A DNA stretch of 44,806 nt, taken from positions 1 to 44,806 of the forward strand of contig JAJUHJ010000012.1 in the NCBI GenBank assembly GCA_029279965.1, given 5' to 3'. Positions 31,749 through 44,806 of this stretch are shown here, in pieces; within the stretch, counting starts at the first letter, position 1, and each line of letters starts with the position of its first letter. The notes under the pieces are model-generated. The model did not search any database and was not told the DNA's origin. It was given only the letters and a program-made list of their open reading frames with translations. The translations under genes and the position numbers were made by a program. This stretch comes from Phyllobacteriaceae bacterium. GTDB taxonomy: Bacteria > Pseudomonadota > Alphaproteobacteria > Rhizobiales > Rhizobiaceae.

Positions 31749-32615
31749 ATGCAGGATATGCTGAAATCCAAGTCGACATTTCTCGCCGCTACTGTTGCAG
31801 CGGTCTTGATGACGGCTGGTACTGCGGGCGCGGCCTCATTGGAGCAGATCACGGAGAGCGGCACCATACGCATCGCCGTGGCCAATGAAATCCCCTACGG
31901 CTACATCGACATGAGCGGCGAGGCCAAAGGCGCCGGGCCGGATGTCGCCAAGCATATTGCGGAACAGTTGGGTATCGAGAATATCGAGTGGATCACCACG
32001 AATTTCAGCTCCCTGATCCCTGGCCTGGAGGCCGACAGATTCGACATGGTTGCGGCCGAAATGGCCATTCTGCCGCAGCGTTGCGAGCAGATCCTGTTCT
32101 CCGAGCCGAACACATCCTACGGTGAAGGCCTGCTCGTCGCGGCGGGCAATCCGAAGGATCTGCACGCCTATTCCGATTTCGCTGAAGGCGATGCCAAGGT
32201 GGCGATCATGGCCGGGGCCGACCAGCTTGAGATGATGCAGGCGCTTGGCGTGCCCCAGTCCAACATGGTGACCATCGCCAGCAATGCCGATGCGATCTCC
32301 ACGGTGGCCACGGGAAGGGCGGATGCTTATGCCGCTACGGGTCTGACCGCCAGCGAACTTGCCGGCAAAAGCGATGACGTCGAACTTGCTTCGGACTTTG
32401 TCGACCCTGTCATCGATGGGGAGGAAGTACGCAGCTGGGGCGGCTTTGCCTTTGCTCAGGGATCGGAAGAGCTTCGTGATGCGGTGAACGAGGCGCTCGC
32501 CGAATTCAAGCAGACCGACGAGTGGAGACAGACGGTTTCGCAATACGGCTTCACGGAAGCCGATGTCGAAGGATCGTTCGAAAGAACAACGGAAGAGCTT
32601 TGCGCGGCAGAGTGA
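31749..32615 (+). CDS. ehuB: EhuB-like ABC transporter substrate-binding protein
   Basis: Periplasmic binding protein of the polar amino acid / ectoine type, 288 residues. A signal peptide is visible (KSKSTFLAATVAAVLMTAGTAGAA). The mature part starts TIRIAVANEIPYGYIDMSG and includes KGAGPDVAKHIAEQLG, MAILPQRCEQILFSEP and a C-terminal TTEELCAAE; these follow the EhuB pattern, including two Cys probably forming a disulphide. Several aromatic positions differ from what I recall of the Sinorhizobium protein, so ectoine is likely but another osmolyte or amino acid is possible. AAGGAGAACCGA precedes the start. A hairpin separates it from ehuC. Confidence 0.8.
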   Translation: MQDMLKSKSTFLAATVAAVLMTAGTAGAASLEQITESGTIRIAVANEIPYGYIDMSGEAKGAGPDVAKHIAEQLGIENIEWITTNFSSLIPGLEADRFDMVAAEMAILPQRCEQILFSEPNTSYGEGLLVAAGNPKDLHAYSDFAEGDAKVAIMAGADQLEMMQALGVPQSNMVTIASNADAISTVATGRADAYAATGLTASELAGKSDDVELASDFVDPVIDGEEVRSWGGFAFAQGSEELRDAVNEALAEFKQTDEWRQTVSQYGFTEADVEGSFERTTEELCAAE

Positions 32616-32635
32616 GGGTTTCCTCATTGTGACCA

Positions 32636-32664
32636 ATGCCCGGCGGCATCGCTTCGCCGGGCAT
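32636..32664 (+). terminator. Hairpin between ehuB and ehuC
   Basis: A perfect 10-bp stem ATGCCCGGCG / CGCCGGGCAT with a 9-nt loop, 20 bp after the ehuB stop and without a T tract. It probably protects the ehuB mRNA 3' end or attenuates read-through, giving more binding protein than permease. Confidence 0.55.
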
Positions 32665-32712
32665 GAATTCCACCCCCGGCCGGCCGGCTGAACGAATTCC
32701 GGGAAACCGTCG

Positions 32713-33384
32713 ATGGAATGGACGAGCTATCTTCCACCTCTCCTTGAGGGGGCATGGGTCACGGTGCAGCTAGCGGTTTATTCGACCGTCCTCGGTGCTG
32801 TTTTTGCCTTTGCCGCCGGAATAGGGAAACTTTCGCACAACCGGCTGATCAGCGGGATTTCGGTTGTCTATATCGAAGTATTCCGTGGAACTTCACTTCT
32901 CGTCCAACTTTTCTGGCTATACTTCGCATTGCCGGTGGCAGGCCAGATCATCGGCATCGATCTGCGTTTGCCGCCGGTGGTTGCCGGAATCCTTGCACTG
33001 GCCCTGAACATCGGCGCGTATGGCGCAGAAGTCGTTCGGGGCGCGATCCAGGCCGTATCCCGAAGCCAACGCGAGGCCGCCAGAGCGCTCAATTTCACGC
33101 CGCGTCAGACATTGCGCTGGATTTTGATCCCACAGGCGCTGCCTGAAATGATGCCGACCTTCGGCAACCTCGCCATTCAGAATCTCAAGGACACCGCCCT
33201 CGTCTCATTGATCAGTCTCGGCGATCTTGCCTTCAGGGCCGAACAGATCCGAAATTTCACCCAGGACAGCACGACCATTTATACAATCGTCTTGTTCATG
33301 TATTTCGGGATGGCTCTCGTTCTTACTGCCATGATGAAACTGCTCGAGCGCTCCGTGGGGCGCTGGCGTACTGCGGGGACCTGA
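32713..33384 (+). CDS. ehuC: EhuC-like ABC transporter permease
   Basis: Inner-membrane permease of the HisM/EhuC type, 223 residues with five hydrophobic segments. GTSLLVQLFWLYFALP and the EAA loop [26 protein letters not shown] are the family marks. The ribosome binding site is weak. It pairs with EhuD as a heterodimer. Confidence 0.88.
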   Translation: MEWTSYLPPLLEGAWVTVQLAVYSTVLGAVFAFAAGIGKLSHNRLISGISVVYIEVFRGTSLLVQLFWLYFALPVAGQIIGIDLRLPPVVAGILALALNIGAYGAEVVRGAIQAVSRSQREAARALNFTPRQTLRWILIPQALPEMMPTFGNLAIQNLKDTALVSLISLGDLAFRAEQIRNFTQDSTTIYTIVLFMYFGMALVLTAMMKLLERSVGRWRTAGT

Positions 33385-33388
33385 GACG

Positions 33389-34081
33389 ATGCTGTTCGGC
33401 ATAGAATGGGATACCAGCAGCGAGTGGGCATTCGCAGTCTCCATCCTGCCAATCCTCCTGATCGGTATGTGGGTGACGATACAGGCAACGGTGCTCGGTT
33501 TCTTCGTCGCCATGGTGCTCGGCCTCATCCTTGCGGTACTGAAAGCGGCCCCGCTTCGCATCGTCTCCTGGCCGGCCCGGGCTCTAACCGAGTTCATTCG
33601 CGACACGCCGCTGCTCATCCAGCTTTTCTTCCTCTATTACGTGTTGCCGGAATACGGCATCATCCTTCCCGCATTTTTGACGGGGGCGCTGGCGCTGGGG
33701 GTCCAGTACAGTGCCTACACATCGGAAGTTTATCGCGCCGGGCTTGAGGCGATCCTTTCCGGCCAGCGCGAGGCCGCACGAGCGCTTAATCTGTCCTCCG
33801 TTCGCACCTTCACGCACGTCATCCTGCCCCAGGCGATACCCCGGATCATTCCGGCGCTTGGCAACTATCTCGTCTCGATCATGAAAGACGTGCCGGTGCT
33901 GTCGGTGGTTACTGTTCTTGAAATGTTGAATGTCGCCAAGATCATCGGCGATCGGACCTTCGATTACATGGTGCCGCTATCGATGGTCGGCGGACTCTAC
34001 CTCATCATGACGCTCGTGGCTTCTGCCGGCGTTCGTTATCTCGATGTCATGCTGCCCAAGAGAGGCTTTCCATTGCGATGA
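33389..34081 (+). CDS. ehuD: EhuD-like ABC transporter permease
   Basis: Second permease subunit, 230 residues, with [19 protein letters not shown] and EAA loop [26 protein letters not shown]. It starts 4 bp after ehuC and overlaps ehuA by 4 bp (ATGA). Confidence 0.88.
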
Positions 34082-34857
34082 GCGATCCAATCATCAAATT
34101 CGACAAGGTCGTCAAACGCTTCGGCAATTTTACGGTTCTGAACGAGCTCGACTTTGAAGTGGGGACGGGAGAGAAGGTCACGATCATCGGGCCTTCAGGT
34201 TCCGGAAAATCGACCGTCCTGCGCATTCTCATGACATTGGAGAACATCAACGAAGGGGTCGTTTACGTGGGCGGCGAACCGCTCTGGCACGAACGAAAGA
34301 ACGGCGCCCTGATACCTGCCAGCGAGGCTCACCTGCGCAAAATGCGGGAACAGCTCGGCATGGTGTTCCAGCAGTTCAATCTCTTCCCGCACATGACCGT
34401 GCGGCGCAATCTCACGGAGGCACCGGTGCGGGTGCTGGGTTTGTCGAAATCTGAGGCGCGCAATCGCGCGGACGAATTGCTTGAGATGGTGGGGCTTACG
34501 GATCAAGCCGACAAATTTCCCAACCAGCTTTCCGGCGGCCAGCAGCAACGTGTCGGCATTGCACGTGCACTGGCAATGCGCCCGAAAGTCATGCTGTTCG
34601 ACGAACCCACTTCAGCGCTGGACCCGGAGCTTGTGGGAGAGGTCTTGAACGTCATCCGCAGGCTAGCCACCGAGCATGATCTCACGATGCTGCTGGTGAC
34701 CCACGAGATGCAATTCGCCCGCCAGGTCTCGGACAGGGTCTGCTTCTTTGACAAGGGACGGATTGTCGAGCAGGGTGTGCCGGACCAGCTTTTCACAAAT
34801 CCCCGGGAAGAACGGACCCGAGAATTTCTCAAAGCCGTCCTCGAGTCCGAGGCCTGA
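34078..34857 (+). CDS. ehuA: EhuA-like ABC transporter ATPase
   Basis: Nucleotide-binding subunit of the importer, 259 residues. Walker [11 protein letters not shown]-loop FQQFNLF, signature LSGGQQQR, Walker [15 protein letters not shown] and H-loop LVTHEM are all intact. The insert [19 protein letters not shown] before the Q-loop is typical of the Ehu branch compared with shorter GlnQ/HisP proteins. Last gene of the B-C-D-A operon; the ectoine degradation genes (eut/doe) found beside many ehu loci do not follow. Confidence 0.9.
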
Positions 34858-35076: not shown

Positions 35077-35850
35077 TCAGAGGCCGTTGCGGGGACGCCA
35101 ATATGCGTAGTCGTAGACCAGCGAGAACCCGGCCCGCGTGTAAAGATTGACGGCAGGAGTATTCTGCTTGTGCACCTGAAGCCACATGACACTGGCACCC
35201 TGATGCGCAGCGTGGCCGAACAGTGCGGCCAGAAAAGCCCGGCCCACTCCTTTTCCACGGGCACTTGCGGTGACCAACATGTTCATCAAGGCGCAACGGC
35301 TTCCATCGAACCAGAGCATGGCGCCCGCCAGCGGAGCGGATGCGTCTGCCGGGTGCCAGAGCGGGCGCGCTGCACGTTCGGGAATGAGCTGGAATATCTG
35401 CCGCAATGTCTGCCGCGCCTCCGATGACAAGTCGCGGTTTTCGAGCTGGAACTCAAGCCACCGGGTGAAAGACACATCCGGAATCAGCGATGGATCGGGA
35501 TCTGCCGGCGCCTGTAGCCGACGATCGTAGACTGCCGCTTCGCGAAACATCTCCCAACCCCGCCCGGCAAGTTCGGATTCGAGGTGGGGCCAGAGCCGCG
35601 GCACACGTAGAACCGGCTCGATCCCATGCGCCTTTGAAAAGGACACCGTTTCGGCCAAAAGCGCATCGAGCGGGCTTTCCTCCGGGTCGAGCAATGTGAC
35701 GCTGGAATTGCGATAATTGAGGCCTCCCGCGGCCCGAAAGACGCTCCCCATGCGGTGCTCTGTCACGATCGCAGGGAAGGCATCCATCCCCATACGCTCC
35801 AGTTCGCGCCAGTCGGATTGAAGAGCATTGCCGCCGCTTTGCAGGTTCAT
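35077..35850 (-). CDS. GNAT-family N-acetyltransferase
   Basis: A 257-residue protein whose C-terminal half is a GNAT domain: MLVTASARGKGVGRAFLAALFGHA gives the acetyl-CoA binding motif A, and VMWLQVHKQNTPAVNLYTRAGF the motif B region. The N-terminal half (about 1-130) resembles the N-terminal lobe of two-domain GNAT proteins. Overlaps the MmgE/PrpD gene by 4 bp (ATGA), so it is the last gene of the TTT operon. It may acetylate an amino compound made by the lyase, a tentative idea from context. Confidence 0.87.
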   Translation of the reverse strand: MNLQSGGNALQSDWRELERMGMDAFPAIVTEHRMGSVFRAAGGLNYRNSSVTLLDPEESPLDALLAETVSFSKAHGIEPVLRVPRLWPHLESELAGRGWEMFREAAVYDRRLQAPADPDPSLIPDVSFTRWLEFQLENRDLSSEARQTLRQIFQLIPERAARPLWHPADASAPLAGAMLWFDGSRCALMNMLVTASARGKGVGRAFLAALFGHAAHQGASVMWLQVHKQNTPAVNLYTRAGFSLVYDYAYWRPRNGL

Positions 35851-37208
35851 GATGACGTTTCAACCTTGTGGAGAACGGGAAAAATCAGATCGGCCACCGT
35901 TTCCGGCAAGGCCATTTCATCCCCGTCTTCCTGGGCGACCTGGCGGGAGAAGACGCGAACCGCTTCTCGCCTTGCCGCCGGCTGGGCCGCCGCCAACGTA
36001 TCGAAACGTTCCGACATTTCCGCCTCGCTCAAGGGAAACTCCGGATCGCCCCGGCGGCCTGTTCTCGCCTCGGTAATGCGCTCCCCTGACCGGGTGCTAA
36101 CCGTGACGCGCCCGGCGCGGATAGCGGGAAAGCCGCGTGTCAGGTGCGGGTCCTCTTTCAGCCGCACCTTGGCGGCCAAGGCACGGATCGCAGGATCGAA
36201 GACGTTTTCGGACGAGAGAGAAAGTTGGCCTGTGGTCCAGAGGATGGCCACGCAAACAGACGTTGAGAAGCGTGCCTGGGCGATGGTCTGCGGATTTGGG
36301 ATTCCAGCGATGTCCAAGGTGGCCGAAAAGCTTTCGACCGAGATTTCGGTGATCTCGTCGGCAGGCACGCCGGTTCGCGCGCGCAGCTCTTGGACAGCGT
36401 CGAGAATATGGTGCATCTGGCCACAGACCGGCCAAGCCTTGGTCGTGGCGGTCGTCAGCGCAAGATTTTCAACCGTGTCCGCGGGCTTGAGTTTTGACCT
36501 GTCGAGCGAAAGCCCGAAGGCTTTCGCCAGGCCCCTGTCACCTTCAAGAATACGGGTCGCGCCCGGCACGCCGCTTTTGGCGAGCGAGGCCGCCCAAAGG
36601 CCGTTGCGGACCGCGTGACCGATATGAGCGGGCTTGGCCGCTTCGGCGCCATCATCGAGCAATTGCCATAGACCGGCCGCCTGAGTGCCGGCGTGACCAA
36701 GCGCCCACAGTGCACGCTCTTCATCGAGATCCAGGAGCACACCGGCGGCCGCGGCGGCTCCAAAAACACCGGCGGTGGCAGTGGTGTGATGCCGTTTGTA
36801 GTGTTCCGGGCCCAACGCCGCACCGATGCGCACCGCAACTTCATAGCCTGCCGTTATGGCGGTACGCATTTGGGCAAAGGACACGGCGTGCCGTGCGGCA
36901 AGTCCCAACACCGGAGGAATGACCACCACGCCGGGATGCAACATGGCGAGACGGTGACCGTCGTCAATCTCTTCGATGTGAGAAAGTGCGGCCACCAGCC
37001 AGGCAGTGTCGGTAAGATCGGAGTCCTTGCCGTTTCCGAGCAGGGCGGCAGCATTACGATAGGGCTCCGCCGCGGAAGAAGCGGCACCGGCATAATATGC
37101 CCCGAACCAGTCGAGAACGGCAGTGCCGGCACGCTTGCTGGATGCAGCAGCAAGGCGCGCTGCAGTACCGTCAGTGCTCCACCGTGTCAGCGGCCGCAGC
37201 CATTCCAT
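35847..37208 (-). CDS. MmgE/PrpD family protein
   Basis: Member of the MmgE/PrpD superfamily, which includes 2-methylcitrate dehydratase, cis-aconitate decarboxylase and iminodisuccinate epimerase. The 453-residue product begins with an all-helical domain (VLDWFGAYYAG, HIEEIDDGHRLAMLHPGVVVIPPVLGLA, with the family's DDGH/HPG segment) and contains KAWPVCGQMHHILDAVQEL and VSFxA-type strands of the second lid domain. The ATG at 37208 lies 5 bp after the M20 stop; the track start at 37265 overlaps that gene. Combined with a fumarase/aspartase-type lyase upstream, an epimerase role is suggested; a dehydratase role remains possible. Confidence 0.88.
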   Translation of the reverse strand: MEWLRPLTRWSTDGTAARLAAASSKRAGTAVLDWFGAYYAGAASSAAEPYRNAAALLGNGKDSDLTDTAWLVAALSHIEEIDDGHRLAMLHPGVVVIPPVLGLAARHAVSFAQMRTAITAGYEVAVRIGAALGPEHYKRHHTTATAGVFGAAAAAGVLLDLDEERALWALGHAGTQAAGLWQLLDDGAEAAKPAHIGHAVRNGLWAASLAKSGVPGATRILEGDRGLAKAFGLSLDRSKLKPADTVENLALTTATTKAWPVCGQMHHILDAVQELRARTGVPADEITEISVESFSATLDIAGIPNPQTIAQARFSTSVCVAILWTTGQLSLSSENVFDPAIRALAAKVRLKEDPHLTRGFPAIRAGRVTVSTRSGERITEARTGRRGDPEFPLSEAEMSERFDTLAAAQPAARREAVRVFSRQVAQEDGDEMALPETVADLIFPVLHKVETSS

Positions 37209-37213
37209 TGCGT

Positions 37214-38395
37214 CTAGGCAGCCTTGCCGCGTGAGAGCGCTTCGCGCGCCACTTCGACCCACCATGCCGCGCCGGTCGTAAGTATCTCATCGTTGAACCT
37301 ATAGGTGGGACTGTGAAGCAGGCAGCCGCCCTCCGTCGAGCCTGCGCCCAGCCACATGTAACAGCCGGGCCGCTTTTGCAGCATGAAGGCAAAATCCTCC
37401 GACGCCATGGAGGGCGCGAATGTATCGCTCACCTTTTGCTCTCCGGCGACGGCGCGGGCGGCGTCCAAGGCAATGCCCGTCTCGCGCCCGGTGTTCACCG
37501 TGGAAGGATACCGCCTCATGTAATCGAGTGTGACCTCGATTCCGAAAGACTTCGCAACGCCCTGACAGATCTCACCCATACGCGCCTCGATGAGGTCCTG
37601 CACTTGCGGCGTGAAATGGCGTGTGCAGCCGCGCATCACGACTTCCGAGGGCAGAACGTTCCAGGCGTCGCCACCATGAATCTGCGTCACCGAAACAACA
37701 GCCGTATCCTGAGGGTCGATCGTGCGCGCTACGATGGACTGGAACATGGTCTGGATGTGGCTTGCCGCCAGCAGCATATCCTTGCCCAGATGCGGCATGG
37801 CCGCGTGAGCACCCTGACCGGAGATGGTGATTTCGAAAACGTCGAATGCAGCCATCTGCGGGCCCACCCGCCCGGCGAAGTGCCCCTCGGTCAGTCCCGG
37901 CCAATTGTGTAGGCCGTAAAGCTCCTGCATGGGGAACTTTTCAAAGAGACCGTCGGCGATCATCTTGTCGGCTCCGGCCTCACCTTCCTCGGCGGGCTGA
38001 AAAACGAAGTGCAGCGTGCCGTTAAAGTTCCTCGTCTCGGCAAAGTAGCGCGCGGCTGCCAGAAGCATCGTCATATGCCCGTCATGGCCGCAGGCGTGCA
38101 TCTTGCCCGGTTCCTTCGAGGCATAGGGCAGGTTGGTCTGCTCGGTGATGGGCAGCGCATCCATATCGGCTCTCAGGCCTATAGCCGGACCCTCACCGTT
38201 GGAGAGCGTGGCCACCACGCCTGTACCACCCAGACCGCGAACAGGCTCGTAGCCGAAACTCTTGAGCTTGTCGGCCACGAAATCGGAGGTCCAATGCTCC
38301 TCATAAGCGAGTTCAGGATGTTGGTGCAGCGTTTGCCGCCAGGACTTCAGATCCTCCTCGATGGAACGGAAGTAGTCGATTGGAACAGTACTCAT
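37214..38395 (-). CDS. M20-family amidohydrolase / aminoacylase
   Basis: Dinuclear-metal hydrolase of the M20D group (HipO/AmaA-like N-acyl amino acid or carbamoyl hydrolases), 393 residues. MHACGHDGHMTMLLAAA and PAEEGEAGADKMIADGLF carry metal ligands and the catalytic Glu; GQGAHAAMPHLGKDML is in the lid domain and PSMASEDFAFML completes the site. A perfect AAGGAGG lies 8 bp upstream of the ATG. It probably removes an acyl or related group from an amino acid derivative in the pathway served by the transporter. Confidence 0.92.
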   Translation of the reverse strand: MSTVPIDYFRSIEEDLKSWRQTLHQHPELAYEEHWTSDFVADKLKSFGYEPVRGLGGTGVVATLSNGEGPAIGLRADMDALPITEQTNLPYASKEPGKMHACGHDGHMTMLLAAARYFAETRNFNGTLHFVFQPAEEGEAGADKMIADGLFEKFPMQELYGLHNWPGLTEGHFAGRVGPQMAAFDVFEITISGQGAHAAMPHLGKDMLLAASHIQTMFQSIVARTIDPQDTAVVSVTQIHGGDAWNVLPSEVVMRGCTRHFTPQVQDLIEARMGEICQGVAKSFGIEVTLDYMRRYPSTVNTGRETGIALDAARAVAGEQKVSDTFAPSMASEDFAFMLQKRPGCYMWLGAGSTEGGCLLHSPTYRFNDEILTTGAAWWVEVAREALSRGKAA

Positions 38396-38409
38396 GGCGC
38401 TGTCCTCCT

Positions 38410-39777
38410 TCAGAAAGGGTCGTTTTGTGAAAGGCTCCTGGAGAGCGCAATTGTGTCTTCCACCTGGGCAACCGCGGTGCCAAGATAATCGCGGTAGTCG
38501 AGCAGCGCTTCCAATTCAGCCGGATCAAGCTTGTCCTTGAGCGCATCGGACTCGCCGATAGCCTGACGGAAGGGCTTGCCGCTCTGTGCGGCTTCCATAA
38601 TCACTTCGTGCAGCACGTGATGCGCGCTCTGCTTGCCGACCTTTTCCCCCAGCTTGAACATCACCGCTTCGGACATGATGGCGCCACTGGTCAGATCGAG
38701 ATTTTCAGCGATCTTGTCTTCGTTCACGACCAGGCCGCCGACCACCGTTCGCATGTGGTTGATGACACGATCGAGCATGATACAGCTTTCCGGCACGGTG
38801 TGCCAATCGAGCCGCCACACACTGGCGTCGCGCTCGTGCGAAACAACCATCGACTGCAGCCCAAGCGTCACATTGTTCATGACGATCTTGACCATGGTGC
38901 CGGAAAATTCCGAGCGCACCGCGTTGCGCTTGTGGGGCATGGTGGAACTGCCGACCATGGTGGCAGGCATCGGCTCGTGGACCTCGCCAAGTTCGGTGCG
39001 CGATAGCTGAAAGATCTCGTTGGCCAACCGGCCCATCGTACCGGCACAAATGCCGAGGACCGAAAGGAACTCGGCAACACCATCTCGGGCGCTTGCCCAC
39101 GAGACAGGCGGATAAACGAGGCCCAGCCGGTCTGCCATGCGCTGAGCGATCGCCTTGGCATCGGGCCCCAGCCCAGCCATTGTACCGACCCCTCCGTGAA
39201 GCATGATGAAAAAGGCACGATCCGGCACATCCTTGAAACGTTCAAGAGTGCGCCGGATTTCCGCGGCAAAGGTTGCCAGCTTCATACCCAGGGTCATGGG
39301 CAGGGCGTGCTGATTGTGCGTTCGACCGACGATAACGAGGTTCTTGTAACGCTCCGCCTGCTCGAGGCAGGTCTCCTCGAGAGCCTTGAGGTTCTTGAAG
39401 AGGATGCTCCAGGCATCCTTCATCTCCGCCGCCAAAGCAGTGTCCTGAACGTCCTGGGTAGTGGCTCCGTAATGGATCCATTCGCCGGCCCCATTGTCGC
39501 ACGCTCGCTCGAAGGCACGCAGAACGGGGACAAGGGTGTGTCCCGCCTTGCCCAGTTCCTCGCGGATGAAGGCGGCATCGAGATTCTCGACCTGCGCCTT
39601 TCGCTTGATCTCCTCGGCCGCTTCTTTGGGAATGACACCGTCCTCAGCCTGGACCAGCGCCAATTCCGCCCAGAAGTCGAGCCAGCGCTGAAACCGGCGC
39701 TCGTCGTCGAATACGGCACGCATCTCGGGCGTGCCCCAGCTGTCTTTATAATAGGAGTGGTCGATAATGTGTGCCAT
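38410..39777 (-). CDS. Fumarase/aspartase-superfamily lyase (PurB/PcaB-like)
   Basis: Homotetrameric lyase of the class II fumarase/aspartase superfamily, 455 residues. The signature GSSTMPHKRNAVRSEFSG is intact, as are IHYGATTQDVQDTALA and GRTHNQHALPMTLGMKLA, the three active-site segments. The sequence is nearest to adenylosuccinate lyase and 3-carboxymuconate cycloisomerase types, but the location in a TTT transporter operon argues against purine synthesis. Superfamily members commonly release fumarate from an N-substituted aspartate. Likely substrates include N-substituted aspartates such as iminodisuccinate; not proven. It lies 33 bp after tctA and 14 bp before the M20 gene. Confidence 0.9.
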   Translation of the reverse strand: MAHIIDHSYYKDSWGTPEMRAVFDDERRFQRWLDFWAELALVQAEDGVIPKEAAEEIKRKAQVENLDAAFIREELGKAGHTLVPVLRAFERACDNGAGEWIHYGATTQDVQDTALAAEMKDAWSILFKNLKALEETCLEQAERYKNLVIVGRTHNQHALPMTLGMKLATFAAEIRRTLERFKDVPDRAFFIMLHGGVGTMAGLGPDAKAIAQRMADRLGLVYPPVSWASARDGVAEFLSVLGICAGTMGRLANEIFQLSRTELGEVHEPMPATMVGSSTMPHKRNAVRSEFSGTMVKIVMNNVTLGLQSMVVSHERDASVWRLDWHTVPESCIMLDRVINHMRTVVGGLVVNEDKIAENLDLTSGAIMSEAVMFKLGEKVGKQSAHHVLHEVIMEAAQSGKPFRQAIGESDALKDKLDPAELEALLDYRDYLGTAVAQVEDTIALSRSLSQNDPF

Positions 39778-39810
39778 TCGATCCTGTTCCAGACTCTTCA
39801 GAGAAATCGG

Positions 39811-41355
39811 CTATTCCGAGCCTGCGGCTCTAGCTTGCTCCTTCGTCCTGCGTGAGCGGTTGATGATGGGCGTCAGGATGAAGAACATCGATGCCGCAAG
39901 CAGAACGAAACTGATGGGGTGTGATACCGGATTGATGAAAACAATCCAATTGCCACCCGAGAGCTGCAGCGCCTGGAAGAGCGACGATTCGATTCTTTCG
40001 CCAAGGATGACGGCCAGGATGATCGGAGCGATGGGAACGCCCGTCTTCTTGAAGAGATAGCCCACAAAGCCGAACAACAGAGCGACCCAGATGCCGAAAA
40101 TCGTACTCTCCACCGCATAGGCGCCGGAAAGACACAAGAAGGCGATGCTCGTCGCCAGGACGCTCTTGGGAAGGCTGTAGACGAACCGTATCATCGACCG
40201 CACCAGCAGATAGGCCACCGGTCCCATCACCAGATTGGCGATCAGGAAGGCCAGAATGATCATCCATGCGATGTCGATCGAGCGCTGAAACAAGAGCGGC
40301 CCGGGGGTCATGCCCTGAATCTCCAGAGCGGCGATGAACAGCGCGGAAACAGAGTTCCCCGGGATGCCAAGTGAAAGCAGCGGCACCATCGAACTGGCGA
40401 CCACCGCATTGTTGGCTGCCTCGGGCGCTGCCACACCTTCAGGAACGCCTTCACCCCAGGGGGTGACATTGCTGTCCGATCCATGCTTGCGGACATAGGC
40501 GCGGGACGCCTGATCGTAACTGACATAAATAGCAATCAGGGCGCCGGCGCCGGGAATGACGCCGACTACGTTTCCGATAGCCGAACTCTGGAGCCATGTT
40601 GGCCAGAGCCGGGAAATCATGGCGCGGCTGGGTGGAACAGCGCTGATTGCTTCCGAACGCTCGATCTGAATCCCGGCGCGCCGGTCTCGGATCATGTCTT
40701 CGACCAGCTCGAGGACCGCTGCAACACCGAAGAGCCCTACGAGAAGCGGGACCAGCGGCACACCTTGGTAGAAATAGAAATTCCCGAAGGTGAACCGCGA
40801 TTCGCCGTGCTGAAAGCCGACCATTGCGATCAGGAGTCCGAAGGCAGCGGCAATGATGCCCTTGAAGATGCTGCCCCTCATCATCCCGACAACGCTCGCC
40901 ATACCAAGGACGCCCAGCGCAAAATTCTCCGTGGGTCCAAAACGCAGGGCAAACGCCGCCAGAACCGGCGCAAGAAAGATGAGAACCAGAGCGCTGCTTA
41001 TTCCACCGACAACCGAGGAGGAAATGGCGACGCCGATTGCCTCGCTAGCCTGCCCCTTCCTGGCCATGGCGTTGCCGTCCAGCGATGACAGCAGAGATGA
41101 GGCCGTGCCAGGGACATTCAACATGATGGCAGGAATGGCGCCGCCGATAGCGGTGGCGCAGTACACGCCCACCATGAGCGCCAGCGCATTGGCTGCATCC
41201 ATGGAAAATGCAAAAGGAATGAAGACGGCAAAGGCGATATTGTCGTTAAGCCCCGGCATGGCGCCGATGAAGAGGCCCGCCACGACGCCGATCATCAGGA
41301 ACATCAGCACTTCGGGCTGAAACAGCACGAAAAGGCCCGCGAGAATGTCCTCCAC
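39811..41355 (-). CDS. tctA: Tripartite tricarboxylate transporter, large permease TctA
   Basis: Large membrane subunit of a TTT family carboxylate importer, 514 residues with about 12 hydrophobic segments. GLFIGAMPGLNDNIAFAVFIPF and GVIPGAGALIAIYVSYDQASR are the duplicated glycine/proline motifs of TctA, and GIPGNSVSALFIAAL is a further family mark. It starts at GTG (41355) after AAAGGGGGTAGCC. TctA transports with TctB using substrate delivered by TctC. Confidence 0.94.
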   Translation of the reverse strand: MEDILAGLFVLFQPEVLMFLMIGVVAGLFIGAMPGLNDNIAFAVFIPFAFSMDAANALALMVGVYCATAIGGAIPAIMLNVPGTASSLLSSLDGNAMARKGQASEAIGVAISSSVVGGISSALVLIFLAPVLAAFALRFGPTENFALGVLGMASVVGMMRGSIFKGIIAAAFGLLIAMVGFQHGESRFTFGNFYFYQGVPLVPLLVGLFGVAAVLELVEDMIRDRRAGIQIERSEAISAVPPSRAMISRLWPTWLQSSAIGNVVGVIPGAGALIAIYVSYDQASRAYVRKHGSDSNVTPWGEGVPEGVAAPEAANNAVVASSMVPLLSLGIPGNSVSALFIAALEIQGMTPGPLLFQRSIDIAWMIILAFLIANLVMGPVAYLLVRSMIRFVYSLPKSVLATSIAFLCLSGAYAVESTIFGIWVALLFGFVGYLFKKTGVPIAPIILAVILGERIESSLFQALQLSGGNWIVFINPVSHPISFVLLAASMFFILTPIINRSRRTKEQARAAGSE

Positions 41356-41372
41356 GGCTACCCCCTTTTTCG

Positions 41373-41852
41373 TTAGTGGATCAGGCGCCGAATAGGCCTG
41401 AGAAATTCGTCGATGACCGACAGTTCAGGCAGCCTGATATTGAAAATAACCGAGAAGGTTAGGAAGCAGGCAAGAACGATGAGCGCCGCGGAAATCGCAA
41501 TGCGCACCGGATCACGCTCTCCCGCGACAAACAGCATGCCTGCCGCGCAGACGAAGCCCGGCAGCACGTATCCCAGCCCGTAGGTAAGAGCCACGGCCCA
41601 TAGCAGCATGAGCACCGCGAAGGGCAAAGCGCCGCGCAGAACGGCCTGGACGTTTTCCGGCTTCGGCGCCGGTGCCATCTTGGCCACGGTTGCGGCCAGG
41701 ACCGCCGCGCCGCTGACCGCCAGGCTTATGGATAACCAGAAGGGAAAGTGGCGCGCCCGCCCGGAAAAATCCGAGGCGATATAGGCGAGGTAGAGGCCGC
41801 CCAGCAAACAAGCGAGCGCGAGATAGCAATCGGGCTGACGCAGGACGCGCAT
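41373..41852 (-). CDS. tctB: Tripartite tricarboxylate transporter, small permease TctB
   Basis: A 159-residue, four-helix membrane protein with the shape of TctB: LACLLGGLYLAYIA, FWLSISLAVSGAAVL, LPFAVLMLLWAVALTYGLGYVLPGF and AALIVLACFLTFSVIF. The ATG at 41852 (AAGGGAAG upstream) is preferred to GTG at 41858. It precedes tctA by 17 bp and follows tctC by about 127 bp containing a hairpin. Confidence 0.9.
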   Translation of the reverse strand: MRVLRQPDCYLALACLLGGLYLAYIASDFSGRARHFPFWLSISLAVSGAAVLAATVAKMAPAPKPENVQAVLRGALPFAVLMLLWAVALTYGLGYVLPGFVCAAGMLFVAGERDPVRIAISAALIVLACFLTFSVIFNIRLPELSVIDEFLRPIRRLIH

Positions 41853-41942
41853 GACCACTTCCCTTAAGCTGGATGTCGGCGATCACCGACAGAAAGGTTT
41901 TGGCAACAGCCGGAACTGCCAGTGAAGAAACCGGCAGGTTTA

Positions 41943-41972
41943 CACCAGTGGCGCCCTGGAGCGCCACTGGTG
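41943..41972 (-). terminator. Hairpin between tctC and tctB
   Basis: A perfect 12-bp stem CACCAGTGGCGC / GCGCCACTGGTG with a 6-nt loop, directly after the tctC stop and without a T tract on the minus strand. Probably an mRNA-stabilising or attenuating element that raises binding protein levels relative to the permease. Confidence 0.6.
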
Positions 41973-41979
41973 GTTATAT

Positions 41980-42939
41980 TTACTGCGCGACGCCGGCGTT
42001 CTCGATGATCTCGGTGGTCAGCTCATCGAAATTCTCGATAACCTGCCTGAATTCCTCCGGACCGGCATAGGTAACCGGCGACCCGAGATCGGCCATGCGG
42101 CTTATATAGTCCTCGTCCTGGCTAAGCTCACCAAGAATCTCAGCCAGCGTTTCGACGATCTCGTCTGGCGTGTCGGCGGGGACGCCCCAGCCACGGAAGG
42201 TCGCGAATTCAACGACGTTCAAGCCGGCTTCTTCCCAGGTCGGCACGTCCGGCAATTCCTCGAGACGGTCACGCGCGGCTACCGCAAGAATGCGGACGGT
42301 GCCGGCATCGGCCTGCTTTTTGGCTTCGCCCCAAGGCCAGAGCGCAGACTGTACGTGGTGGCCGGCCACCTGCTGAACCTGCTCGCCGAAGGCGGGAACG
42401 TTGATGATGTTGAGGTTGAGATCTGCGCGGTTCTCCAGCGCAAGGCCGCTCATGTGGTGGGACGTGCCCTCGGCTGAAGTCACCGTCGACACCTCTCCAC
42501 TGCGTGCGGCTTCAATGAAATCCTCAATGGTCTCAAACTCGGAATCGGTTGGCACGGCGATCACTTCCGGGTCGAGGGTATAGAGCGCCACTGCTCGGAA
42601 ATCATCGAGTTCGAAGGGGGTTTCCTGCAGTTTCGGATTGGTCACGATCGAACTGGTCATGGCCAGAACCGTCTGCCCATCGGGCGCTTCCCGCGCAACA
42701 GTGGCCTGCCCCACAATCGAGTTCGAAATATTTTCGACGACGAACTCGTAACCACCGCCCAGCAGGTCCAGCTTATTGGCCGAGTCCGCGATGATCCGGG
42801 TGGTGGTATCGACCGCGCCGCCGGGTGCAAACGGAACGATCAGACGCACGTCATCCGCCGGATAGTCCTGGGCGACAGCGGCGGCACCGGCAAAGCCCAC
42901 TGCGAGCGCGGTCATGAGCAAGGTTTTTGGAAATTTCAT
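41980..42939 (-). CDS. tctC: TctC-type solute-binding protein (Bug family)
   Basis: Periplasmic binding protein of the TctC/Bug family, 319 residues. It has a signal peptide (KFPKTLLMTALAVGFAGAAAVAQ) and the typical YPADDVRLIVPFAPGGAVDTTTRI opening. The mid-protein aspartate/Pro segments (VPAFGEQVQQVAG) and GWGVPADTPDEIVETLAE match the family. Bug proteins bind carboxylates through water-bridged contacts, fitting an amino-dicarboxylate or tricarboxylate ligand. Ribosome binding site GGAGGACAAAG. First gene of the operon, with an inverted repeat upstream. Confidence 0.93.
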   Translation of the reverse strand: MKFPKTLLMTALAVGFAGAAAVAQDYPADDVRLIVPFAPGGAVDTTTRIIADSANKLDLLGGGYEFVVENISNSIVGQATVAREAPDGQTVLAMTSSIVTNPKLQETPFELDDFRAVALYTLDPEVIAVPTDSEFETIEDFIEAARSGEVSTVTSAEGTSHHMSGLALENRADLNLNIINVPAFGEQVQQVAGHHVQSALWPWGEAKKQADAGTVRILAVAARDRLEELPDVPTWEEAGLNVVEFATFRGWGVPADTPDEIVETLAEILGELSQDEDYISRMADLGSPVTYAGPEEFRQVIENFDELTTEIIENAGVAQ

Positions 42940-43164: not shown

Positions 43165-44806
43165 TCAAACAATGAAATCCGGCGTCAGCTGCCTGTCGGA
43201 CACCCGGAGCTCTATGATCGCGGGCCCGCCCGAGCCGAGGGCCTGCTCCAATGCTTCGGGGAACTGATCTTCGTGCTCGACCACTGTGCCAAAGACGCCG
43301 TGAGAGCGGGCCAGCATCGCGAAATCCGGGTTCTCGAGGCTCGTCCCGCTGGGTCGCCCCGGATAGTGTCGCTCCTGATGCATACGGATCGTACCGTAAA
43401 TGCCGTTGTTGACGATAATGACGATAATGCCAAGCCTGTTCTGGACGGCGGTGGCAAAGTCGGGCGAGGCCATCATGAAACAGCCGTCGCCGGCCAGCGC
43501 GACGACGGTGCGGCCAGGGTGGCGCAGCTTGGCGGCGATGGCAGCAGGCAATCCATAGCCCATGGATCCCGACTTCGGGGCGATCTGCGTGCCGAACCCC
43601 TTGTACCGGAAGAACCTGTGCAGCCAGATGTTGTAGTTCCCTGCACCATTCGTGATGATGGCGTCTTCAGGAAGGCTCTCGCTCAAATGCTTGACAATGG
43701 CGGCGATGTCGAGCCCGTGGGGCTTCGTTCGACCCTTCTGAAACTCCTCATACGCCTCGCGGCCGCCTTTGGTCCATTCCGTCCATGGGGACGGATCCAG
43801 AGGCGGAATGGTTTCGAGTGCTTCTGTAAAACGGGAAACGCTGGAGAGAAGTGGCAAATGCGGATTGTAGACGCTGCCAAGGTCTTCCGGCCCCGGAAAG
43901 ACGTGGACAAGCGTCTGGTCAGGAACCGGTATTTTCAGCGCCGTGTAAGCCTTGGTGGTGATTTCGCTCAGGCGGTCGCCGATCACCAACAGAAGGTCCG
44001 CCTGCTCGACCCGCTGGGTGAGCGCCGGGTTCGATCCCGGGCTTAGATCGCCAAGATACTGCTCCAGCCTGTTATCAAAGATGTCCTGTGAACGAAAACC
44101 AGCCACAACAGGAAGATTGTTGTTTACACAAAACCGCGTGAGCTGCGCGGAGGATTCAGCCGACCAGCCGCTCCCGCCGACAATGACGAGAGGGCGCCGG
44201 GCTTTGCCAAGCAGTTCGGCGACGGCGGACATATCTGCGTTCGAAGGCCCGGAGAGTGCTGCACGATACATCGGGAAATCCGCGACATCACTTCGGGTCT
44301 CCAGAACATCCTCCGGAACGCAAAGCACCACCGGACCCGGTCGACCGTGTGTCGCAATATGGAAAGCGCGGCTCACAAATTCAGGCAACAAGTCGGGGGT
44401 ATTCACCTCGCCAACCCACTTTGTCATATCCGCGAAGACGCGGGTATAATCCACTTCCTGGAAACCTTCGCGCCCGCGCTCCATGGACGAAACCTGTCCG
44501 ATGATCAGGACCATGGGAGTAGAGTCCTGCCGGGCGGTGTGCAGGCCGATGGCAGCGTGCATCGCTCCCGGTCCGCGGCTGACGATGCAAACTCCCGGCA
44601 AACCGCGGATCTTGGCATCGGCTTCCGCCATATGTGACGCGTTCGCTTCATGCCGGCAGGGCACAAACCGAACGCCAGCGCCGGGAGTGAGGAGGGCATC
44701 GAAGAATGGCAGAGCGCTTTCGCCGGGCACACCGAAGACCGTATCCACACCGTGGATGCGCAATGCCGAAACAAGAATTTCTCCCCCGTTCCGCGATCCG
44801 GTTTCC
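43165..44806 (-). CDS. Thiamine diphosphate enzyme, acetolactate synthase-like (5' end cut by window)
   Basis: ThDP-dependent enzyme of the acetolactate synthase / benzoylformate decarboxylase superfamily, at least 546 residues. The catalytic Glu is in CRHEANASHMAEA, PGAMHAAIG marks the N-terminal domain, and the ThDP/Mg2+ motif is GDGCFMMASPDF ... VIIVNNGIYG. The track starts at a TTG (44763), but the frame stays open to the window edge and reads GGEILVSALRIHGVDTVFG, typical of the family's N-terminus, so the true start lies just outside. Family members decarboxylate or carboligate 2-oxo acids; the substrate is unknown. It is 225 bp upstream of tctC on the same strand. Confidence 0.9.
   Translation of the reverse strand, partial: ETGSRNGGEILVSALRIHGVDTVFGVPGESALPFFDALLTPGAGVRFVPCRHEANASHMAEADAKIRGLPGVCIVSRGPGAMHAAIGLHTARQDSTPMVLIIGQVSSMERGREGFQEVDYTRVFADMTKWVGEVNTPDLLPEFVSRAFHIATHGRPGPVVLCVPEDVLETRSDVADFPMYRAALSGPSNADMSAVAELLGKARRPLVIVGGSGWSAESSAQLTRFCVNNNLPVVAGFRSQDIFDNRLEQYLGDLSPGSNPALTQRVEQADLLLVIGDRLSEITTKAYTALKIPVPDQTLVHVFPGPEDLGSVYNPHLPLLSSVSRFTEALETIPPLDPSPWTEWTKGGREAYEEFQKGRTKPHGLDIAAIVKHLSESLPEDAIITNGAGNYNIWLHRFFRYKGFGTQIAPKSGSMGYGLPAAIAAKLRHPGRTVVALAGDGCFMMASPDFATAVQNRLGIIVIIVNNGIYGTIRMHQERHYPGRPSGTSLENPDFAMLARSHGVFGTVVEHEDQFPEALEQALGSGGPAIIELRVSDRQLTPDFIV

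Follow-up and report, generated by a model that had tools for sequence, protein, structure and literature searches.

What is imported and degraded by a seven-gene operon in which a tripartite tricarboxylate transporter (TTT) is followed by a lyase of the fumarase/aspartase superfamily, an M20 amidohydrolase, an MmgE/PrpD-family protein and a GNAT acetyltransferase? The window, that is the whole stretch of 44,806 nucleotides analysed here, comprises an entire contig (C12) and carries these genes on its minus strand from 42939 to 35077, in the order tctC-tctB-tctA-lyase-M20-mmgE/prpD-GNAT. The locus had originally been predicted to encode an epimerase-lyase pathway for an N-substituted aspartate; all seven genes are indeed found where they had been placed, and all seven family identities lie above the curated Pfam cut-offs. 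With respect to the substrate, sequence relationships suggest, with about even chances in our estimation, that the operon serves the uptake and degradation of an amino acid with a succinated thiol, for which S-(2-succino)cysteine (2SC), free or N-acetylated, is the most likely candidate. 2SC arises through molecular damage and serves as a biomarker for diseases in which fumarate accumulates; to our knowledge, only a small number of enzymes can remove it. The region contains the following features:

43165-44763, upstream of tctC: ThDP-enzyme gene, truncated by the contig end
41980..42939, minus strand: tctC, periplasmic solute-binding protein of the TTT (PF03401, 101.9 bits against a cut-off of 27)
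41943..41972, strand (.): perfect 12-bp inverted repeat (hairpin) within the tctC-tctB gap
41373..41858, minus strand: tctB, small TTT membrane subunit (PF07331, 50 bits against a cut-off of 29.1)
39811..41355, minus strand: tctA, large TTT membrane subunit (PF01970, 433.8 bits)
38410..39777, minus strand: fumarase/aspartase-superfamily lyase, predicted S-succino lyase (2SL-like) (PF00206 and PF10397, Lyase_1 and ADSL_C)
37214..38395, minus strand: M20D amidohydrolase, predicted N-acetylcysteine-type deacetylase (Peptidase_M20; TIGR01891, 359 bits against a cut-off of 153.75)
35847..37208, minus strand: MmgE/PrpD-family protein, predicted 2-substituted-succinate (S-succino) epimerase (PF03972 and PF19305, N and C domains)
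35077..35850, minus strand: GNAT N-acetyltransferase, predicted to N-acetylate an amino acid substrate (PF00583)

The intergenic distances are operon-like, with gaps of 121 bp between TctC and TctB, 17 bp between TctB and TctA, 33 bp between TctA and the lyase and 14 bp between the lyase and M20, a likely ATG of the MmgE/PrpD gene at 37208, 5 bp past the M20 stop, and a 4-bp overlap of the MmgE/PrpD and GNAT genes. The inverted repeat in the tctC-tctB gap, a possible mRNA stabiliser or attenuator, is one of nine terminator-like matches, a class that is not enriched as shuffled sequence averages 8.3, and has by far the longest stem among the terminator-like matches listed. The gene grouping is conserved, since the same seven genes occur in identical order in Chelativorans sp. 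YIM 93263 (L003), with identities to the window proteins of 78% for TctC, 52% for TctB, 81% for TctA, 80% for the lyase, 82% for M20, 58% for MmgE/PrpD and 55% for GNAT. The ThDP enzyme was rejected as an operon member, being located approximately 225 bp from tctC and absent beside the Chelativorans operon. Only in this Chelativorans genome has the complete gene order been met again, and among 299 sampled genomes of the family a close lyase occurs in the window's own genome only (next best 41%); the operon is rare. A search for relatives among viral contigs retrieved none, and the GC content of the operon (60.5%) and of the remaining window (60.1%) gives no hint of recent import. An amino-acid ABC transporter adjoins the operon in convergent orientation (31749-34857).

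In the lyase, the catalytic motifs HYG, RTH and GSSTMPHKRN...E are intact (H102, H154, S277/S278, K283, N285 and E290 as read from the window sequence), with S277, K283 and N285 invariant among nine relatives. The window lyase and the 2SL-type lyases have HY/F-G and HERDxxxW in common, in place of which other lyases show HWG, HLG or HQG and FERATGPW or HERSLGLW. Against NCBIfam, the window lyase scores under the cut-offs of narrow subfamilies and exactly at the cut-off of the general purB model TIGR00928, which is exceeded by the Pantoea scm-locus lyase and the Proteus lyase, too; equally, the model ranking with the PRK08937 subfamily first and the 3-sulfopropionylcysteine synthase XcbD second is the same in these two relatives. 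Identity to the scm-locus lyases amounts to 36-39%, and the signature columns matched are 4 of 12 for the 2SL-type, 8 of 89 for PcaB, 9 of 121 for PurB and none of 27 for the 3c8t-like (dicarboxylate-symporter-linked) lyases, which were rejected or unsupported as the group of the window lyase. In an ML tree and comparison that are without the lyase of strain BY6 for iminodisuccinate (IDS) and the Dickeya and Enterococcus 2SL (E0SKP1, E6LDH5), the window lyase joins the 2SL-type group at 48/30 and constitutes, together with its Chelativorans counterpart, a long branch; its union with the scm lyases alone was not rejected by the AU test (p 0.09), nor was an attachment near PurB (on the PurB stem, p 0.34) or XcbD, a placement which counts against 2SC as substrate. 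Membership of PurB itself was not supported, as the lyase falls outside the 100/100 PurB clade and the PurB motifs HQG and HERDISHSS are absent; another PurB-type lyase is encoded elsewhere in the genome (G000:C20:15412-16641). Identity with PcaB (3-carboxymuconate cycloisomerase) was rejected, with a union dismissed at AU p = 8e-4 and scores under the PcaB cut-offs. The lyase seems to belong to neither PurB nor PcaB, a grouping that would have spoken against the original prediction, and it is predicted to be a 2SL-like S-succino lyase.

The context of related lyases appears to point to sulphur, not nitrogen. Loci combining lyase, GNAT, ABC transporter and M20 were recovered from Pantoea, from Niallia, where an NtaA/DmoA monooxygenase adjoins the M20 gene, and from another two genomes within the phylum. 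A second arrangement, the type B loci (L046-L050, L035 and L061) of Variovorax and of members of the window's family, unites lyase, TctC and MmgE/PrpD with a GlcD-like oxidase and a two-domain rhodanese; where this was tested, in L047, the rhodanese exceeds the 3-mercaptopyruvate sulphurtransferase cut-off of NCBIfam. Most of these loci contain an extra gene that resembles the dioxygenase half of Blh (MBL-fold); a publication on type B loci was not found. In Proteus, the lyase and MmgE/PrpD pair is accompanied by a cystathionine beta-lyase and a mercaptopyruvate sulphurtransferase, both above cut-off. Downstream of the Chelativorans operon lie a signal-peptide rhodanese and a sulphur transporter (Sulf_transp protein). 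The window operon itself is without a sulphur gene, which speaks against 2SC. These neighbourhoods also bear on whether another S-succinyl or S-carboxyalkyl thiol, such as the S-succino form of mercaptolactate, mercaptopyruvate or a coenzyme-M-like compound, or a mercapturate imported in acetylated form, is processed, still by a C-S lyase. The GlcD-like 2-hydroxyacid oxidase and mercaptopyruvate sulphurtransferase of type B would fit S-succino mercaptolactate, 2SL is active on several small thiols (PMC9706529) and XcbD ranks second among the models, but the window possesses GNAT and M20, not oxidase and sulphurtransferase, so that an amino-acid substrate fits better and such a thiol is rather unlikely.

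In the nitrogen-linked pathway originally predicted, the MmgE/PrpD protein would epimerise an aspartate or aminodicarboxylate with an N-substituent or N-acyl group, and a C-N lyase would split this compound into fumarate and either an amine or an amino acid. The pairing of a succinyl-lyase with an epimerase-type MmgE/PrpD protein withstood the analysis: the seven residues that form the active site of IDS epimerase and B. subtilis 7BRA are all present, namely both epimerase bases (His99, Tyr145) and five further residues, part of which are missing in E. coli PrpD and cis-aconitate decarboxylase. Furthermore, 2hp0/2hp3 are close behind 7bra among the PDB matches, and C-N cleavage is generally common among superfamily lyases. 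The proposed substrate fared less well and is unlikely. An exclusive clade with IDS epimerase 2HP0 was rejected (AU p = 2e-9; approximately 25% identity over the aligned part), related loci contain the sulphur genes described above, and no lyase was found beside the three nearest IDS-epimerase relatives in the family. GNAT and M20 are without a role in IDS breakdown and would fit the acetylate-cleave-deacetylate route of 2SC (PMC9706529, PMC12757645). The seven residues do not specify nitrogen either, because they are shared by 7BRA, other MmgE/PrpD proteins and methylsuccinate isomerase (PMC12290011).

Returning to a succinated thiol as substrate, the MmgE/PrpD protein forms a clade with the MmgE/PrpD proteins of the type B lyase-TTT-MST loci (99/96; approximately 36-40% identity). 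It does not group with 2-methylcitrate dehydratase PrpD, which would have spoken against the original prediction, nor with cis-aconitate decarboxylase (AU p 4e-4 and 2e-4); from both its residue pattern departs at Tyr, Cys and, for PrpD, His. Rejection of an exclusive clade with 7BRA (p 2e-7) and the missing second base Tyr in the MmgE/PrpD proteins of L035, one type B locus, and Proteus count against 2SC. Judged from its organism and length, 7BRA is presumably YxeQ, yxeQ being an MmgE/PrpD-family gene. The substrates of characterised MmgE/PrpD enzymes are 2-substituted succinates, methylsuccinate being isomerised by one of these enzymes, and 7BRA has no assigned function (PMC12290011). It is conceivable, with the balance tilting slightly towards doubt, that MmgE/PrpD proteins beside succinyl-thiol lyases, including that of the window and possibly YxeQ, are 2-thiosuccinate epimerases. 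If true, cysteine that has been succinated spontaneously would be accessible in both isomeric forms to a stereoselective C-S lyase (or YxeK), and a new MmgE/PrpD activity would fill a function gap in the known 2SC pathway.

The two remaining enzymes are of more local character. The best PDB match of M20 is YxeP (1ysj; approximately 36% identity), with which the metal-ligand motifs MHACGH, PAEE and HN and a near-C-terminal H agree in the alignment; common rhizobial M20D paralogues are closer than YxeP (50-55% identity). GNAT, apart from its Chelativorans copy, is approximately 30% identical to family paralogues, weakly resembles CG3035-type N-acetylglutamate synthase (54 bits against a cut-off of 280) and is of a longer, rhizobial type that differs from the short scm GNAT; the Pantoea scm GNAT as query gave no match in the Chelativorans locus. 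By these similarities GNAT and M20 appear to have been recruited locally and not to be orthologous to the known scm enzymes, which weakens the case for 2SC. At the eight loci checked in other genomes that encode GNAT or M20 relatives, neither a lyase nor an MmgE/PrpD or Tct gene was detected nearby. That both belong to paralogue-type families common in the group could indicate a loosely assembled catabolic operon in which M20 and GNAT act on other compounds and the substrate is an unrelated tricarboxylate or N-acylated amino acid (O-succinyl or C-C). The generally broad ligands of TTT binding proteins and the occurrence of trans-aconitate decarboxylase and PcaB within the lyase superfamily would agree with it, yet preservation of the seven-gene order in a second genome and the phylogenetic tie of MmgE/PrpD to the type B loci make it very doubtful. 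The TctA, TctB and TctC subunits form a complete TTT set, each above its Pfam cut-off, and the PDB matches of TctC give no ligand prediction.

In the favoured degradation of 2SC, TctABC would take up 2SC or a similar tricarboxylate, GNAT would N-acetylate the imported compound, the MmgE/PrpD protein would interconvert both configurations at succinyl C2 (the 2-thiosuccinyl carbon), the lyase would eliminate fumarate with N-acetylcysteine remaining, and M20 would deacetylate N-acetylcysteine to cysteine. The need for an epimerase would arise from the chemical addition of fumarate to thiols, which should yield both isomers, one of which a superfamily lyase would use. By analogy, the trio of acetyltransferase, succinyl-lyase and M20 deacetylase would represent the logic of 2SC breakdown, in which 2SL lyases stand in for the monooxygenase YxeK in yxe/scm clusters with N-acetyl-2SC preferred (PMC9706529), and work alongside acetyltransferase and M20 deacetylase (PMC9706529, PMC12757645). 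From the operon, a further arrangement of transporter and genes is predicted for 2SC salvage, and a function is suggested for MmgE/PrpD proteins of the YxeQ type. Its sulphur-linked sister loci connect C-S chemistry with lyases that are at present annotated automatically as PurB or PcaB.

Among known systems, the scm/yxe 2SC locus with 2SL (Hillmann et al., 2022, PMC9706529) resembles the window in its combination of acetyltransferase, fumarase-superfamily lyase, M20 deacetylase and solute importer, and its yxeQ in B. subtilis is listed without assigned function. However, it uses the YxeMNO ABC importer whereas the window uses a TTT, and GNAT and M20 of the window stem from other subfamilies, with MmgE/PrpD outside the clade of 7BRA. 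The type B loci share with the window a lyase (of the 2SL-type group in type B, 2SL-like by prediction in the window), the TTT and the closest MmgE/PrpD relatives, but have rhodanese/MST, GlcD-like oxidase and usually the MBL-fold dioxygenase-like gene where the window has M20 and GNAT. Agrobacterium tumefaciens BY6 reportedly degrades IDS with IDS epimerase (2HP0) and a C-N lyase. This system has in common with the window the epimerase/lyase logic on a 2-substituted succinate and the epimerase active-site residues, but involves a nitrogen leaving group and no role for GNAT or M20, in contrast to the sulphur leaving group proposed here. XcbD of coenzyme M synthesis belongs to the same superfamily as the window lyase, shares the HERDxxxW motif and performs C-S chemistry, but is biosynthetic, encoded in a different locus and on a long separate branch. 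Finally, (S)-(R)-methylsuccinate isomerase of the MmgE/PrpD family uses two bases to epimerise a 2-substituted succinate at C2 (PMC12290011), but partners CoA-pathway genes, whereas the window MmgE/PrpD protein partners a lyase.

All seven genes of the original prediction, a candidate N-substituted aspartate pathway with a lyase and an MmgE/PrpD protein, are located on the minus strand, co-oriented and tightly spaced; MmgE/PrpD probably starts at the ATG at 37208, 5 bp past the M20 stop. The identical gene set and order is present in Chelativorans sp. YIM 93263 (52-82% identity per gene), where a rhodanese with a signal peptide and a Sulf_transp protein come next. The features of the window are:

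31749-34857, opposite strand, converging on the end of the operon: ABC transporter of the amino-acid type, with a binding protein, two permeases and an ATPase
42939-35077, minus strand: tctC-tctB-tctA (tripartite tricarboxylate transporter, TTT), lyase, M20, mmgE/prpD, GNAT
41943-41972, in the tctC-tctB gap: perfect 12-bp inverted repeat
43165-44806, upstream of the operon: ThDP enzyme, PRK08199 subfamily (736.6 bits, cut-off 539)

Inverted repeats are frequently positioned after binding-protein genes. The ABC transporter is of the class that elsewhere serves the scm locus. The ThDP gene, whose reading frame stays open up to the contig end and which probably lacks the initial codons, does not adjoin the Chelativorans operon; a 48% relative is encoded near a lyase and an MmgE/PrpD gene in another fetched locus (L057, 10322-11899).

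The lyase, a member of the fumarase/aspartase superfamily (PF00206 and ADSL_C) with intact catalytic motifs, has no second close homologue among 299 sampled family genomes (next best 41%), and the best other lyases reach 38% in 385 class-level and 36% in 399 phylum-level genomes. Its NCBIfam scores lie under the narrow-subfamily cut-offs and, for the general purB model, precisely on the cut-off; the top two models are PRK08937 (a subfamily model) and XcbD (3-sulfopropionylcysteine synthase), a ranking equally obtained for the Pantoea scm-locus lyase and the Proteus relative. In a tree of 40 rows the lyases of the window and of Chelativorans pair with each other on a long branch, isolated from the rest, and the best tree (support 48/30) places them beside lyases of the 2SL type, which release fumarate from S-(2-succino)cysteine (2SC); attachment next to XcbD is not rejected. 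PurB makes up a clade of its own (100/100), and attachment of the pair on the PurB stem is not rejected; a union with PcaB is rejected at p 8e-4, one with the dicarboxylate-symporter-linked 3c8t group strongly so. The motifs are more telling about affinity than the tree: HYG and HERDxxxW match the 2SL-type lyases, and group-specific columns, small counts made after the groups had been chosen by locus type, are shared with 2SL-type lyases at 4/12, PcaB at 8/89, PurB at 9/121 and the 3c8t group at 0/27.

Sorted by gene neighbourhood, the lyase relatives fall into types A, B and C. Type A is the scm locus of 2SC breakdown (lyase, GNAT, ABC transporter, M20), found in Pantoea (annotated), Niallia and two further genomes; co-occurrence of a 2SL-type lyase and a YxeK-type monooxygenase, as in Niallia, has been reported to be rare (PMC9706529). 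Type B comprises seven loci, in family genomes (L046-L050) and on Variovorax plasmids (L035, L061), with a 2SL-type lyase, TctC, MmgE/PrpD, a two-domain rhodanese and a GlcD-like FAD oxidase; all five family-genome loci also show TctA, five of the seven loci include an MBL-fold gene resembling the dioxygenase half of Blh (persulphide-dioxygenase-like), and the L047 rhodanese exceeds the mercaptopyruvate-sulphurtransferase cut-off. These loci, for which no published description was found, read like a route in which S-succino mercaptolactate would be cleaved by the lyase to fumarate and mercaptolactate, the latter being oxidised to mercaptopyruvate with subsequent sulphur transfer and persulphide oxidation. 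Type C consists of a lyase, MmgE/PrpD, a DcuC-type carrier and LysR (Proteus L034; a second locus, L045). Two loci in detail are:

L060:13288-14709, Niallia taxi plasmid pMEGANia: scm-type locus, 2SL-type lyase and NtaA/DmoA (YxeK-type) monooxygenase
L034:3673-11835, Proteus mirabilis (NZ_OL790811): type C, with additional genes for cystathionine beta-lyase and mercaptopyruvate sulphurtransferase that each exceed the cut-off

An Escherichia coli IncF plasmid (NZ_CP069439, L064:3960-10687) carries a broken Proteus-type cluster with fragments of DcuC, PLP enzyme, lyase, MmgE/PrpD and LysR. Since MmgE/PrpD genes are uncommon (the 3.26 Mb genome of the window has two), their recurrence within ~6 kb of these lyases is by estimate far beyond chance.

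In a tree of 17 rows with many long branches, the window MmgE/PrpD and the type B proteins form one clade (99/96); exclusive clades with iminodisuccinate (IDS) epimerase, the B. subtilis structure 7BRA, PrpD or cis-aconitate decarboxylase were each rejected. The active-site residues common to IDS epimerase and 7BRA are conserved in 7/7 positions (D83, H91, Y137, H141, K192, K257, C262, counted from ATG 37208; alignment numbering is three higher), while cis-aconitate decarboxylase is without the Tyr and Cys and E. coli PrpD without the Tyr, His and Cys. 7BRA is presumably YxeQ, judging by its organism and the YxeQ length of 445 residues. The two IDS-epimerase bases also occur in 7BRA (PMC7347537), whose function is given as unknown; 2-substituted succinates are substrates of the family, one member isomerising methylsuccinate (PMC12290011). 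An epimerase role is chemically coherent, because 2SC itself belongs to the 2-substituted succinates, carrying its sulphur at C2; the literature search found no paper naming both '2-succino' and 'MmgE'. The closest IDS-epimerase relative found in the family (G127, L074:9960-11006; 42-43% identity) has no fumarase-type lyase within the surrounding 14.3 kb.

From these parts and their context we infer substrate, step order and activities: with about even odds, TTT would import an amino acid with a succinated thiol, in all likelihood 2SC, and this compound would be acetylated, epimerised, cleaved at the C-S bond to fumarate and finally deacetylated. The lyase/epimerase logic of the original prediction is thereby retained; its nitrogen substrate, an N-substituted aspartate, would fit the active-site residues shared with IDS epimerase, but appears rather unlikely next to the succinated thiol.

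GNAT and M20, both required by the scm route, are both present in the operon, and neither appears to be an scm orthologue. The M20 protein has YxeP as best PDB match with the same metal motifs, and shares 50-55% identity with M20D proteins that are common in the family, as compared to ~36% with YxeP and scm M20s; the GNAT is of a 257-residue type with ~30% paralogues in nearly half of the sampled family genomes. Should the operon serve the scm function, it would have been put together from local parts. The scm/2SL pathway has a YxeL-type GNAT and an ABC transporter, and because the operon departs from it in these two features and is at best tentatively comparable in the others, it is not classed with that pathway, although in the proposed reading it would work alike.
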